Shown: positions 1,032 through 43,319 of the stretch, piece by piece
How the letters are laid out: every line of letters starts with the position of its first letter
How positions within the stretch are numbered: position 1 is the stretch's first letter
Origin: Arcobacter sp.
GTDB lineage: Bacteria; Campylobacterota; Campylobacteria; Campylobacterales; Arcobacteraceae
NCBI GenBank assembly: GCA_002869535.1
Contig: PKUK01000008.1
Span: 178,541 to 242,540 of the forward strand
Length of the DNA: 64,000 nucleotides
Direction of reading: 5' to 3'
Position numbers and translations under genes: made by a program
The notes under the pieces: model-generated
The model's database searches: none
Told to the model about the DNA's origin: nothing
The model's input: only the letters and a program-made list of their open reading frames with translations

Positions 1032-4000
1032 TTATTTATTTTTTTCTTCTTTACTTTTTGTAATAAATTTTCTCTCAATTAAAATACCAATAAGTTTTCT
1101 ATTATAATATTTATCTATTAATACTGGTCTTTTACCATCTAATCTTGCAATATTACTATATTCATTTTCTAAAAGACTTAATAAATTTAGAAATTCATCT
1201 TCAGATAAATATTCATTTTGTTCAACAATTATATTAACTTGCATTTCTTTTGTATTTAAATTTATAATTAAACTTTCTAAAAAACCAATTGGGTATTTAA
1301 TTTTTTTATCCATATTATCATAAACTAACTTTCCAATATTTTTATTATTTATCAATTAATAATCAAGTTTTTTTATTATCTCTATCTTTATTTCTTTTAC
1401 AAATGAACTAAGTAATAAATTATGTACATCATTTTCATCTAAATTGTATTCTTCATATTTTATTAAAAATTTATCAATATTTTTTTCAATAAGTTTTATA
1501 TGTTGACTTTTTGTACATTCTTTTAATCTTTTAAAATTCTGAACTGTGAATTGAAATTTTTCAGTCTTAACTAATTCTATAATTCTTTCTTCGTCAATAG
1601 TAGATATATCTAAATCTGGATACCAATAACCATTTGATTTAATTAATTCTTTATATGAATTAATCTCTATTTCATTTGCAAATAAAATATTTTTTACTAG
1701 TTTATTTACTAAACTAATATCGAATTTACTATCTTCCATGAATTTTGTTTTAGAATTTATTCTTACATCTGATAAAACTTTTGCATTCTCAATTATATTA
1801 AAATATTTGATTAAACTTTCATCTATCTCTTTATGCTCCTGGTAATAATATAAAATATTATTCCAATCAGCTTTTATTTTATTTTCCTCAAATAAATTCT
1901 TCCATAATTCATGATTTGTAACCTCTGAAATATTAGATATTAAAGTTTCTTCTCTTTTTATAATTTCAATTTTTAAGTCATCTGATATATGTTCATTATT
2001 GAGTAAATCAACAAATATGTTTTCATCATCATTAATTTTTTCCATACTTAATAAAATATTATCTATATAACTTTCTATATGCTCTTCAATATTATCTATT
2101 AAATTTTTACATGTAGAATTTTTTATTATTGTTAGATTCTTTTTATCTAAATCTTCTAATTTAAATTCATTTTTATTAAACTGTTTTAAAATTCCCTTTA
2201 TCATTTCAAAAGAAATTTCATAAAAATTATTAGTATAACTAAACTCAAATAGACTAATATTATCTTTAATTTGTGATGCTTTATTAAATTTAGGTTGAAG
2301 TATTAATAATACATCTTTAATTTTTTTCATATCAATATTTTCTCTAAATTTTATAAAATTATTAATATTAGAAATATACTTACTTATTAAATTTATATTC
2401 AATTTTTTTATATTTTCAATTTTTCCATATTTCAAAATCAATTTTAAATAATTTTCTTTTTTCTCAATTGTAAAAGAAGAGTTTTCTATTTCTTCCCAAA
2501 ACCAACTACATTTACTAATAACTAAATCAATAAATTTATTAATATGCTGATAATTTAAATCAATATACCCTTTTATAAACTCTAAATCCTTTCTTTGATT
2601 TATCTGTTTTATTATTTGATTCAAATTCTTTATATTTTCTTTTTCTATTAAATATTCCAATAAACTATAGTTTAATACTTCTTTTTTATCATACTCATAG
2701 TAGTGTATTTGTTTAATAACTTCACTAACTTTTTCTAATTTAAAGGTATAGTCTTTAGCTCTTCTTTCCCTAATAGATAAAATAAAGTCTCTATCTTCTT
2801 TTGTAATACTTTCTTCATAAAAATGTGAAATATAATAGTTATATGTTTCATCTATATGTCCATTTGTAATTAAAAATATTAATAAACCTTTTTCATTAAA
2901 GTCGTCCCCAAATACAGTATTACTATCTTCAATTAAATCTTTTAGCTCTTTTATTTTAATCAATTGCTTTTCATTTTCTAAAGATTCAATTTCTTTGTTA
3001 CTAGTATTTATATATTCATTATTTTTATTTTTTATTAACTCTTCTCTTTCATCATAACTTTTCTCACAAACTTCATTTCCTATATTTTTAAAAACTAATG
3101 GATTTTCATAATAATTATCGCATTTTATATTGGAAGATTCTTTTAATATACTAAAGTTACTTTCCTCTTCTAAATCTGGTATATCTATAGAAATATTGTT
3201 AACTATTATTCTATTATTGTGTATTGAATTAAATTTCTTTAATACATTATAAATATATATACTTCTTAATTCATCAATTGATTTTATTTGCTCATTTTCT
3301 ATTTCTTCCAATTTATTTTTAATATTATTTATTTTTTCATCAATAGACTTAATTCTTGTATTTATCAATTTATCTTTTTTTGACAATACTTCGTAAACTA
3401 AACCTTTTTTATTACTTAACTTTGAAAAATCATCAGGAAATAAATTTTTATAAACAATCATACTAAATAACTTTTCTTTTTCTAAACTATCTGATTCAAG
3501 TTTTTCGTTATAAATAATAAATTCATTAAAAATATTTTTTAGTAGTCTCATATTATCTATATAAAGACAAATATCATTTATAAAACTATTTTTTAATACA
3601 TTTAACTCTAATCCCATATACTTTTTATATTTTCTTATCATGATTTTTAATTGTTCACTTGAATTAGAATAATCAACAATAGGAATAACAGGAACAATTA
3701 AATCAAAAAACTTTGTTCTTTCTTCGTCTTTAAAATTATCATCTTTTATTGCATAAATAAAAGTTACACTTTGTTCAACTTCTTTTGAATTATTTAAAAT
3801 TAAATTTATTTCTCTTAACTTTACAAAGATATCAATATTTTTAGCATATCTATCTAAATCTTCAAATATAACAATATTGTAATTTGTTGCTTTAAAAAAA
3901 TATATAATCTCATCAAGATTTTTATTTAATATTGAACTACCATCTTTTTGCCCTAAATCAACTTCACCACTCTTTAGATTAATTTTTTTCAAATCAATAT

Positions 4001-4547
4001 CACCTAATAAGCTTATTATTTTTGGGAGAGCAAGAAATATACTAATAAATGTAATTATAAAACCAATTATATACACTATATCAAACTTTAAAAAGTCTAA
4101 ATACTCTGGTAAATCTTTATTTTTGTATGCAATAAAAAAGAAAAATATAAAGATAAAAATATATAGACTATAATCTCGCAACTCTTGAAAGGTAATATCT
4201 TTTATTCTCTTGAATCGAGAAAATGGTATCTCTTCGTTTTTTACTGTATAAAACATCTTTTGTAATATACTACGTTCTACATCAGTGTTTTCATTGTTTT
4301 TTTCTGAATCAGAAAAATCTGCAAGAGAAATATTTAAAAAAGAATAATCATCTTTATATTTTTTTTCAAATGTTTTAAGAATACTGCTTTTCCCTGAACC
4401 ATAAGCTCCTGACAATGCAATATTTTTTATATCTTGCTCATCAATTCCATGTTTTAACGAGCACTCATAAACTCCATTATTTTTTACATTATCTGTTGGA
4501 GTTAGATTTTCTAATATATTTTTACAGTCAATAATTTGTTCTTGCAC
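1032..4547 (-). pseudogene. YobI-type P-loop NTPase, interrupted by an in-frame TAA
   Basis: Large membrane-linked NTPase. Visible parts: NLTPTDNV near the N-terminus, Walker A GAYGSGKSS, two hydrophobic segments (around residues 120-175), Walker B VIFEDLDRYA, the RTKFFDLIVPVIPI motif, then a long alpha-helical region. The main reading frame stops at TAA 1356-1358, but the next codon opens a 107-codon stretch in the same frame. Its end (DGKRPVLIDKYYNRKLIGIL) looks like the normal C-terminus of YobI-type proteins, so the two are one gene; joined length is about 1171 residues, typical of the family. GTG 4547 is the likely start because AAAAGG lies six bases upstream; an ATG at 4592 is the alternative. 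YobI-like NTPases are predicted conflict or defence proteins; the function here is inferred. The gene is very AT-rich and sits beside a repeat element and ORF6N genes, which suggests transfer. Confidence 0.75.
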
Positions 4548-4662
4548 AATAATCCTTTTAAATAAAAAAATATTATATCTTTTCTTCATCATATATCATG
4601 TCACAAAACAATATAATAGTTACTATAATATTATATTTTTAATTAATTTACATACATAATTC

Positions 4663-5249
4663 TCTCTTGAAGAGGTAAACCTCTCCGCTTTCTTACTTTT
4701 GTGTTGACGAAAAGTAAGCAAAAGCAACTACGGCTTCGGAGCCAAAGGTTCCCTCATTTATTATTTTTAATTTCTAGCTTGCGGAACTCCTAAAAAAGAG
4801 TGAGTTTATCACTCTTTTTTACTCAAACAAGTCCTCAGCTTTCTCCGAAATGAAAAATAAACATTCGGCTCCTGCAGATGTAGAAAGAAATCTCTTCCGT
4901 TGTTACTTCTTCTGTACAGTCTTTATATTAATTAAAGTAAGTAAAAGTTAGTAATCTAAACAAATCAAAATGCAAATGTCCTTATCCCACCTTTGGTTCC
5001 AACATTTGCAAAAGCCGAACGTTTATTTTTCTCTTTTCTAAACAAGATTGGCAACTGTTTGAGTGTTTAAAAGTTGCTAAACGCAATTTTTAATAAACGA
5101 GTTTTCTCAAAGAGAGTGCAAGCACAAGCCAAGCAGAAAAGATAAAAATAATAAGTGAGGGAACCTTTGGCTCCGAAGCCGTAGTTGCTTTTGCTTACTT
5201 TTCGTCAACACAAAAGTAAGAAAGCGGAGAGGTTTACCTCTTCAAGAGA
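4663..5249. repeat. 587-bp non-coding element with 94-bp perfect terminal inverted repeats (copy A)
   Basis: The left arm (4663-4756) and right arm (5156-5249) are exact reverse complements over 94 bp and continue inward with one mismatch to about 4771/5141. AATTC occurs directly outside both ends (4658-4662 and 5250-5254), as a target-site duplication would. The centre has no convincing gene. It holds a 12-bp hairpin with T run (4792-4820) and further complementary patches, so the whole unit could fold into one long imperfect hairpin. A diverged copy lies at 41401-41945. This explains the whole gap between the NTPase gene and the first ORF6N gene. It could be a MITE-like element, a structured RNA gene, or both. 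Confidence 0.85.
4792..4820. terminator. hairpin with T run inside element A
   Basis: A 12-bp perfect stem (AAAAAAGAGTGA / TCACTCTTTTTT) with a five-base loop looks like a bidirectional intrinsic terminator. Copy B has an equivalent hairpin at 41534-41554, so the structure is kept between copies. Confidence 0.55.
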
Positions 5250-5260
5250 AATTCTATTTT

Positions 5261-5782
5261 TTATTTCACAAACCCAATCTTATTCGTCCCCTCTTTTGCC
5301 TCTTCCTGAATATCTTGCATATTTGAAACAACTTGTACAACCTTGCTTAAAAGTTCCCTTGTCTCATTATCACTAGTTTCTAACTTCTCTAATCTTTTTA
5401 TAATATCAAAATATGGCACAGCTTGATTTTTCAACCTAACAAATGTTCTCATGATAGATAGACTTACATCTGTAGCAACTTTACTTTTTAATACAGTAGA
5501 AAGCATATATACACCATGTTCAGTAAATACAAATGGATTTGAACTTGAGTGTTTCAATTTTTCTAACCGGTCGCATTTTGCGACTAGTTCATTTTTTTCT
5601 CCATCCATTAGTTGAAACATAAAATCATTTGGAAACTTTTTTATATTTCTTTTTACTTGCTCATTTAATCTCTTTGTTTCTACATGATACAACTCTGCCA
5701 AATCTCTATCTATCATAACTTGAATACCTCTGATAATAAATATTTTATCATCAACTATTATATTTGAAAGCTCTTTTTCCAT
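5261..5782 (-). CDS. ORF6N-domain protein (phage antirepressor type), copy 1
   Basis: The first ~115 residues form an ORF6N domain (RDLAELYHVETKRLNEQVKRN, FPNDFMFQL, FTEHGVYMLSTVL), the DNA-binding module common in phage antirepressors and in chromosomal genes of unknown role. A short coiled coil (about 125-160) and the tail TNKIGFVK follow; such an IGF ending is common in the family. Length (173 residues) is normal. TAAAGGAG upstream supports the ATG. Its stop lies twelve bases from the right arm of element A. It is closely related to the next gene upstream and probably arose by tandem duplication. Regulatory target unknown. Confidence 0.85.
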   Translation of the reverse strand: MEKELSNIIVDDKIFIIRGIQVMIDRDLAELYHVETKRLNEQVKRNIKKFPNDFMFQLMDGEKNELVAKCDRLEKLKHSSSNPFVFTEHGVYMLSTVLKSKVATDVSLSIMRTFVRLKNQAVPYFDIIKRLEKLETSDNETRELLSKVVQVVSNMQDIQEEAKEGTNKIGFVK

Positions 5783-41325: not shown

Positions 41326-41400
41326 ATCAATCCCTTTTGAGTTTTATAGTTTTAGTATAACATTGTAAAGTTATATTTGAATGAAATTGTAAGATTTTTT

Positions 41401-41945
41401 CTCTTGAAGAACAAGTTCTTCGCTTTCTCACTTTTTAGTTGTAAAAAGTAAGACAAAAAGCAACCAGACGAGTTGATGAAGGCAAAGCTTCCCTACAGTT
41501 ATATATTTATTTTCTGCCCTGCAAAACTCACTAAAGAGTGCATTTAGCACTCTTCTTAACGTTCAAACAGTTTCGGGCATAACCGAAAATAAACATCTAA
41601 CTTCCGGCTTCATCAAAGTCTGGGAAGAATGAAAGTTCAAACTATCATTTGTAAAGTAGAACAAGAAAAAGATAAAAGACTAGACAAATCAAAAATGCAA
41701 ATGTCCTTATCCCACCTTTTATCTCCAACATCTACAGAAGCTGAGCGTTTGTTTTATCTTTTCGGAAAAGGCTTGCAACTGTTTGAACAGAACAAATATG
41801 CTAATAGCATATTTTTATGTGAGTTTTGCAAGACAGAAAAGAGAAAACAATAAGAGAAGAAACCCAAAGGGCTTCGCAGCCGTTGGTGGTTTTGCTTACT
41901 TTGTCCACACAAAGTAAGAGAAAGCGGAGACCTTTAGGTGTTCAA
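41401..41945. repeat. 545-bp non-coding element, diverged copy B
   Basis: The ends are imperfect inverted repeats (41401-41500 and 41850-41945; for example CGCTTTCT is paired in both arms, and TGCAAAACTCAC occurs in opposite orientation inside). The middle shares long near-identical stretches with element A, for instance CAAATGTCCTTATCCCACC (41698-41716, matching about 4973-4991) and CAACTGTTTGA. It has an equivalent internal hairpin (AAGAGTGC / GCACTCTT, 41534-41554). No convincing gene. It fills the gap between ridA and the coiled-coil membrane protein. It is more decayed than copy A. Confidence 0.75.
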
Positions 41946-41966: not shown

Positions 41967-43319
41967 TTATTTCTTAAATGATGAAATTATATCTGTAACA
42001 GTTACACTATTTTCATCTTTTATAATTCCATGATTTGTTTGTCTAAAAATACTTTCTATCATGATTTTTTTATCATTTTCTTCTAAGGTATTTCCTTCTT
42101 TCATTAATGCCAAATAAGTATTTATCATTGTAACTCTTTCTTTTGCATCAATAGATAAATGATAACTACTAAGAGCAATTTTCATCACTATTCTAATAAT
42201 CCAAATTGTTAATGAAATTAGTAAAAGCATAAAGGCATACTTAATTAAATCTATATTGAATAAACTATTACTCAATGTTTCGCTATCTTTTTGAACGTTT
42301 GGATTTGACACTTCAATTGTCTTAATTATTTCTGCTTTTGCTTCTAATGCAAAACCTGTATCAATTTCTAAAATACTAAATACTAGTATAAGAGAAGCAA
42401 TTATTGCAATGGATAAATATATTATATACCTTTTTGAATAAAAATTAATTTGGTCTTCCCAAAATTCTGTTGATGCATGAACTCTTAATTCACTCAAAAC
42501 TGTATCTTTTGCATTTTTGTAATCTTCTTCTAATGATGAAGCATTCTCATATAAATTTTTAACACTATCAAATAATTCTTTATTAGAATCTAATTTCTCT
42601 TCTAGCTCTGTAATTTTTCCTGTTAACTTTAACTTATCATCTTCTAATTTTCTTAGTCTTTCTCCTTCAGTTGAACTATTTTTAAAATTATTGATTAAAT
42701 CATTAACATCTAGTTCATTAAAAATTGTATTATCGATTATCTTTTCAATAATAATTGGCTCGTATGAGCCATATTGTGGTAGCATATCATGAAATGCAAT
42801 ATTAATAAATTTTTCTTTTGATACTGACATATCAGTTTTTTCTTCACCACCAATAAAAATAATTGCATTATTTTTACTTTTATAAACCTTAAAAGGCTTA
42901 TTCTTAGCCTTTGTTTGTAAAGTCAGATTTGATTCTTCAGAAGTCTCATTTAATAGTGAAATTAATTTATCATATCTTTTAGAAAATTCATCTTCCGATA
43001 TGTTAATAGTTTGGGTATCAGTGTATTTAGTAATAAAGTCATTCATAATATCTACTATATCAATTTTATAAGCAGATATATTTGTATTTGATGACAACAT
43101 ACTTTTTAATTTATTTAGTTTACTATACAGCTCATTAGCAAGGTCTGTATCAATATCACCTTTTTTAGCCTTATTAATTAAAGAGTTAATTGTATTTGAA
43201 AAATTTTCAATTAATATCTCATTTTTAATATATGTACTAACATATTCTAAAACAATATGATTTTTTAACTTTCCATCAATGTGATAAAGGGATTCCAAAA
43301 GGTTTGGATAAATTGGCAT
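41967..43319 (-). CDS. coiled-coil membrane protein (possible DUF6161 type)
   Basis: A 450-residue protein with an N-terminal soluble helical part (1-210), a coiled coil (about 215-275, TGKITELEEKLDSNKELFDSV), two membrane segments (about 302-320 and 365-385), and a conserved-looking C-terminus (SSYHLSIDAKERVTMINTYLALMKEG) that resembles the end of proteins annotated as DUF6161. No catalytic motif is seen. Its AT bias and its place directly beside element B suggest an accessory gene, perhaps acquired. A role in stress or phage defence is only a possibility. Confidence 0.65.
   Translation of the reverse strand: MPIYPNLLESLYHIDGKLKNHIVLEYVSTYIKNEILIENFSNTINSLINKAKKGDIDTDLANELYSKLNKLKSMLSSNTNISAYKIDIVDIMNDFITKYTDTQTINISEDEFSKRYDKLISLLNETSEESNLTLQTKAKNKPFKVYKSKNNAIIFIGGEEKTDMSVSKEKFINIAFHDMLPQYGSYEPIIIEKIIDNTIFNELDVNDLINNFKNSSTEGERLRKLEDDKLKLTGKITELEEKLDSNKELFDSVKNLYENASSLEEDYKNAKDTVLSELRVHASTEFWEDQINFYSKRYIIYLSIAIIASLILVFSILEIDTGFALEAKAEIIKTIEVSNPNVQKDSETLSNSLFNIDLIKYAFMLLLISLTIWIIRIVMKIALSSYHLSIDAKERVTMINTYLALMKEGNTLEENDKKIMIESIFRQTNHGIIKDENSVTVTDIISSFKK

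Follow-up and report, generated by a model that had tools for sequence, protein, structure and literature searches.

The window analysed here is a 64,000-nucleotide stretch of an Arcobacter sp. genome (assembly GCA_002869535.1, contig PKUK01000008.1). Near its start, between a Tmn-like anti-phage gene and an ORF6N-domain gene, lies a non-coding palindrome, hereafter E, a second copy of which occurs further along. The features considered, in window positions, are the following:

1356-4592, minus strand: Tmn-like anti-phage gene (YobI-type P-loop NTPase) on the variable side of E, absent from the orthologous place in the sister species G001
4663-5249, no strand assigned: E, a 587-bp imperfect palindrome, non-coding, present in about 18 copies genome-wide
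4663-4769, plus strand: left (distal) arm of E, 93-97% conserved between E and its orthologues in two sister species
4669-4688, plus strand: left end hairpin of E, GAAGAGGTAAACCTCTCCGC, covarying among copies, with TGA or TAA at end positions 6-8
4791-4821, plus strand: internal perfect hairpin AAAAAAGAGTGA-GTTTA-TCACTCTTTTTT, an inverted-repeat pair in the window
5106-5127, plus strand: 22-bp insertion CTCAAAGAGAGTGCAAGCACAA in E, flanked by GAGTTTT and GCCAAGC; the sibling copies aligned from the same genome lack it
5143-5249, minus strand: right (ORF6N-side) arm of E, almost identical to the left arm, while each sister species has a different type there
5224-5243, minus strand: right end hairpin of E, with the left-hairpin sequence on the minus strand, terminator-like
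5261-5782, minus strand: ORF6N-domain gene (PADLOC candidate PDC-S05) on the conserved side, its stop 12 bp from E
41400-41945, no strand assigned: second copy of E in the window
41967-43319, minus strand: AbiZ-like gene (DUF6161), variable, 22 bp from the second copy of E

The original prediction had described perfect inverted ends of 94 bp with AATTC outside each, enclosing no gene or transposase and folding as a unit, and this anatomy was confirmed. E is correctly placed at 4663-5249, its arms are 107 nt each around a centre of 373 nt, the first 94 bp from the end are identical without a break, and 106 of the 107 positions match overall (99% complementarity). AATTC lies immediately outside both ends. 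No ORF is contained wholly in E, the single one listed being a chance TTG ORF that crosses the right end, which also bears out that E is not an insertion sequence. Either strand folds far better than shuffled sequences (z about -29), yet this is expected of any long palindrome and is, taken alone, no evidence of an RNA.

A check of copy number had been proposed for E, which is multi-copy: a search of the source genome (G000) against itself returned about 18 elements and two solo ends. Matches were obtained in 28 of the 60 relatives searched; since the weakest of them cover nothing but a short internal motif, the true family is less widespread than these 28 suggest. It is strongest in the genus itself and in several other genera of Arcobacteraceae. 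Paired copies mostly measure 500-600 bp, and an 85-bp relic made of two E ends is present in G001. Inverted ends were found in all paired copies and are mostly imperfect, the arms of the other measured copies being 51-79% alike, with the window copy as the exception. In the alignment the copies are mosaic, two or more types of left half and of right half being variously combined. A phage or plasmid origin was rejected, as the phage collection and the plasmid collection both gave zero matches. The best explanation of the family is that of an old, vertically kept and constantly reshuffled set of long palindromic intergenic repeats of the Arcobacteraceae. A related but different repeat was seen in G030, where a piece like window positions 4759-4851 occurs in at least eight near-identical places (L109, L110), three of which follow one another at 559-bp intervals.

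The copies are placed unevenly with respect to gene ends. Full-length oriented copies were convergent in 13 cases, tandem in 23 and divergent in three, and the median distance from E was 43 bp to a gene 3' end and about 124 bp to a 5' end, the surrounding gene calls being mechanical ORFs, for which single distances may be off. The 3' side was the nearer one in 20 of 26 tandem copies (p = 0.009), and a few copies contain the stop codon of the neighbour. That one fixed end of E always faces the gene 3' end was rejected in a wider sample (19 left vs. 17 right). All distinct ends aligned carry TGA or TAA at positions 6-8, and the first end hairpin had 27 double-changed cells among 39 distinct ends vs. 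7.7 in shuffles, none of 500 shuffles reaching 27, although kinship among the copies inflates such counts; controls in which the pairing was slid showed far less pairing. The consensus scan, which returns pattern matches, gave five terminator-like sites on both strands vs. 0.2 expected, and the first T tract that follows the end hairpin departs from the canonical pattern of intrinsic terminators. No match to Rfam 15 reached the gathering score in seven loci holding sibling copies, and the window copy had only one sub-threshold chance match; a known RNA family was thus rejected, and of the earlier suggestion of a structured RNA it is the covarying end hairpin that stands.

It is possible, though we find it doubtful, that E is a transcript-end structure only, acting as a terminator or stabilising mRNA in the manner of REP/BIME or ERIC units, and that its defence-gene neighbours (see below) reflect tolerance of repeats. 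The position behind stop codons, the avoidance of divergent promoters, the covariation of the end hairpin and the terminator-like ends on both strands are all as such a structure would have them, but a terminator could be far shorter than 500-600 bp, and this explanation alone accounts neither for the swapping of halves at fixed sites nor for the one-sided synteny described below.

Less likely still is that E is a MITE, i.e., a non-autonomous element mobilised in trans through recognition of its inverted ends by a transposase, as the original prediction had considered. Inverted ends, lack of coding capacity, dispersed copies and a suitable length agree with it. The AATTC repeats had been taken for a possible target-site duplication, which is unsupported: over 41 pairs of E ends the direct flank repeats had the lengths seen with shuffled flanks, without excess, no duplication of constant size was found, AATTC is one of two 5-bp flank repeats among these pairs, and it is absent from the elements of the sister species G001 and G002. 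Target duplication at E was rejected on this comparison. An autonomous element sharing the ends was not recovered, the search of the own genome giving only E copies and solo ends, and no obvious transposase lies in the two intervals between a solo end and E that were read out. Among the relatives no clean empty site was found; at L206, the one site that lacks E, the DNA past the border differs along its whole length. Against a MITE also count the low likeness of the arms in most copies (51-79%) and the sites common to three species.

Synteny around E places it at the border between conserved and variable DNA. G001 keeps the order ExoIII - segment - E - ORF6N, and the segment between ExoIII and E measures about 0.75 kb there vs. 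3.7 kb in the window, where it holds the 1078-aa Tmn-like gene. A large rearrangement between G000 and G001 at the window copy was rejected, since the order is kept across E and the segment differs on one side only. At the 41400 copy, G001 has about 0.5 kb in place of the adjoining 450-aa gene (41967-43319), and among the copies where synteny could be read it is also one-sided at L010, L013, L015, L017, L018, L020 (the 41400 copy) and L022. The flank beside the G001 and G002 element at ORF6N lies in G000 beside another copy, L009. Synteny gaps without E also occur in the same 40 kb of the window. Two different PemK/MazF-like toxin genes were observed in the same variable segment beside E in two species (L084 398-730; L022 1914-2273).

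E occupies the same site, next to the ORF6N gene that ends at 5261, in both G001 and G002, and therefore the window copy is not a recent insertion, a possibility that was rejected. With the ORF6N gene set on the right, the distal arm is 93-97% alike between the three species and the ORF6N-side arm 69-82%. The ORF6N-side arm of the window is 94-95% like the distal arms of the sisters vs. 76-82% like their ORF6N-side arms, which points, provided that the assembly is right, to one window arm having overwritten the other since the species diverged. The original prediction had stated that perfect arms need either recent origin or homogenisation; homogenisation holds, while recent origin falls with the site being filled in G001 and G002. 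The cause may be template switching in the palindrome, as in quasi-palindrome correction, which is an established process. The three sister species would thus have caught the arm-to-arm overwriting of a palindrome.

Collapse of palindrome arms in the assembly could mimic perfect arms, and the window copy is the sole exception among copies whose other measured arms are 51-79% alike. Nonetheless, we hold it highly improbable that the perfect palindrome is an artefact assembled over two similar arms: the copy sits within a 740-kb contig, a one-base difference between the arms remains that a simple collapse would not keep, and the orthologues show that the element itself is real.

Many of the genes beside E resemble defence genes. 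The 1078-aa gene of the window matches the Tmn model at 4e-77 (PADLOC), and the GC content of its region is 17-21% vs. about 27-30% in most flanking bins. At a threshold for a defence match of E-value 1e-5, PADLOC matches were obtained for 9 of 29 tested neighbours of E in G000 vs. 1 of 51 control genes (Fisher p = 3e-4); the controls came from the window and two loci, mostly from the window, with core genes included, so that the size of the contrast is uncertain and part of it may be one of core vs. accessory genes. The neighbours in G000 comprise an AbiZ-like protein, a specificity subunit, an OLD/AriA-like ATPase, a KAP ATPase (PDC-S20), an AbiP/AbiC-like protein and PDC-S31, as well as a type IV restriction-like HNH protein in a two-gene islet flanked by a solo E end on one side and a complete E on the other (L258 3171-5788). 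Family tallies, which give lower bounds, showed matches to defence models for at least 6 of 41 neighbours in G001 (a type I methylase, PDC-S35, PDC-M62B, type IV restriction, mad2 and an Argonaute-associated gene) and for at least 5 of 28 in other genera (G010, G011, G020). The enrichment is an association and not a cause, and E may merely survive in variable regions.

We infer from the sequences that E is a mosaic, palindromic repeat of intergenic DNA with two roles, ending transcripts and providing a recombination seam for defence islets, a reading to which we assign a probability of about 0.5. Transcripts running into E would form the end hairpin and stop or gain protection there, and E would insulate the neighbouring genes in both directions. 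As a long repeated palindrome it could serve as a seam at which incoming or resident DNA with another E recombines, whereby islets with Tmn, AbiZ-like or type IV restriction genes would be exchanged beside a fixed core gene. Arm-to-arm template switching in replication or repair would have rewritten one arm of the window copy and left a perfect inverted repeat. The copies are thus probably seams for the swapping of defence genes rather than ordinary transposons. Of the mobile regulatory element proposed originally, the location 3' of genes and the terminator-like ends fit the regulatory part, while the evidence leans to a recombination seam by defence genes. In integrons, the palindromic attC sites lie at cassette-gene 3' ends, and E also lies at gene 3' ends beside exchangeable defence genes, but a site of this kind for a dedicated recombinase moving gene cassettes is scarcely credible here, as the copies are dispersed and not arrayed, are too divergent for a strict core site, and in the window have the variable gene on the 5' side and the conserved one as the 3'-adjacent gene. 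If E is a seam, the Arcobacteraceae would carry a non-coding address for the arrival and loss of defence genes, new defence systems could be found by reading the DNA beside each copy, and the turnover of defence islands, a long-standing question, would become testable at one locus.

Several known repeat families resemble E in part. REPs are units of 20-40 nt mobilised by RAYT transposases; like E, the REP/REPIN/BIME repeats are palindromic and intergenic and combine several units in mosaics, but the units are unlike the 500-600 bp of E in size. In Neisseria, mosaic repeats (dRS3/RS, NIME) and minimal mobile elements, in which cassettes differ between conserved genes, were proposed to promote recombination with incoming DNA (PMC3898611). 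E is likewise mosaic and intergenic and borders gene cassettes that differ between relatives, but it is one palindrome of 500-600 bp in about 20 copies, while dRS3 is a 20-bp repeat (ATTCCC(N8)GGGAAT) with about 700 occurrences (PMC3898611). With up to 2 mismatches allowed, no dRS3 repeat was found in the window, and E, which works like the neisserial mosaic repeats, is therefore not a member. ERIC/IRU, Correia/NEMIS and RUP are intergenic imperfect palindromes of about 100-170 bp that are transcribed into structures; most end in TA and have target duplications, and internal insertions occur at fixed points in some of them (PMC2229807). E shares the palindromic intergenic form and such fixed-point insertions, and it is set apart by its greater length and the lack of a target duplication. 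RUP also inserts into IS transposase genes (PMC2229807), a likeness to the 22-bp motif.

This motif may be a stranger find than E itself. In the window copy, CTCAAAGAGAGTGCAAGCACAA stands exactly between GAGTTTT and GCCAAGC, where the siblings continue without an insert; other copies of E carry the motif at the same place or at a second T-run before GCTTAC. In L102 and L108 the stretch between the two positions is missing and one 22-mer is left, which looks like deletion, as if the motif copies had recombined. The consensus CTCA[N]AGAGAGTGCAAGCACAA(G), 22-23 bp long, is dispersed across the Campylobacterota in palindromic repeats and transposase genes. It was found in 33 of 397 genomes of the phylum (zero for a reversed-pattern control) and in 91 stretches from named genomes, which belong almost entirely to the Campylobacterota, with no occurrence in viral contigs and none in the literature searched. 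All 88 listed cases have TTT in front of the motif, two of these three letters belonging to the search pattern, and 81 have G after it. Eighteen of the 91 distinct contexts lie in or next to matches to IS256- or IS1595-type transposases, and E-family contexts number 10 with the motif masked in the query and 34 without masking. Single IS256- or IS1595-type genes hold two to four copies in both orientations (L247, L251, L252, L253, L254). No general target duplication was seen at the 22-mer sites, and movement of the 22-mer as a DNA hairpin was unsupported by folding. A bolder proposal, which we consider a long shot, has two parts: E would be a site dedicated to the exchange of anti-phage cassettes and retained at gene ends because its palindrome favours break-and-swap there, and the 22-bp motif would stem from a separate phylum-wide process that writes one fixed short sequence after T-runs, both in transposase genes and in repeats. 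A second fixed insert, TTATCTCCCTTTGGTCGCTACAGCAAGCTAAG, which was not found in 100 other (relative) genomes and which a neighbouring IS256 copy in L251 lacks, was observed at the same point of two IS256 genes (L251, about 2190-2235; L253, about 1560-1604, minus strand).
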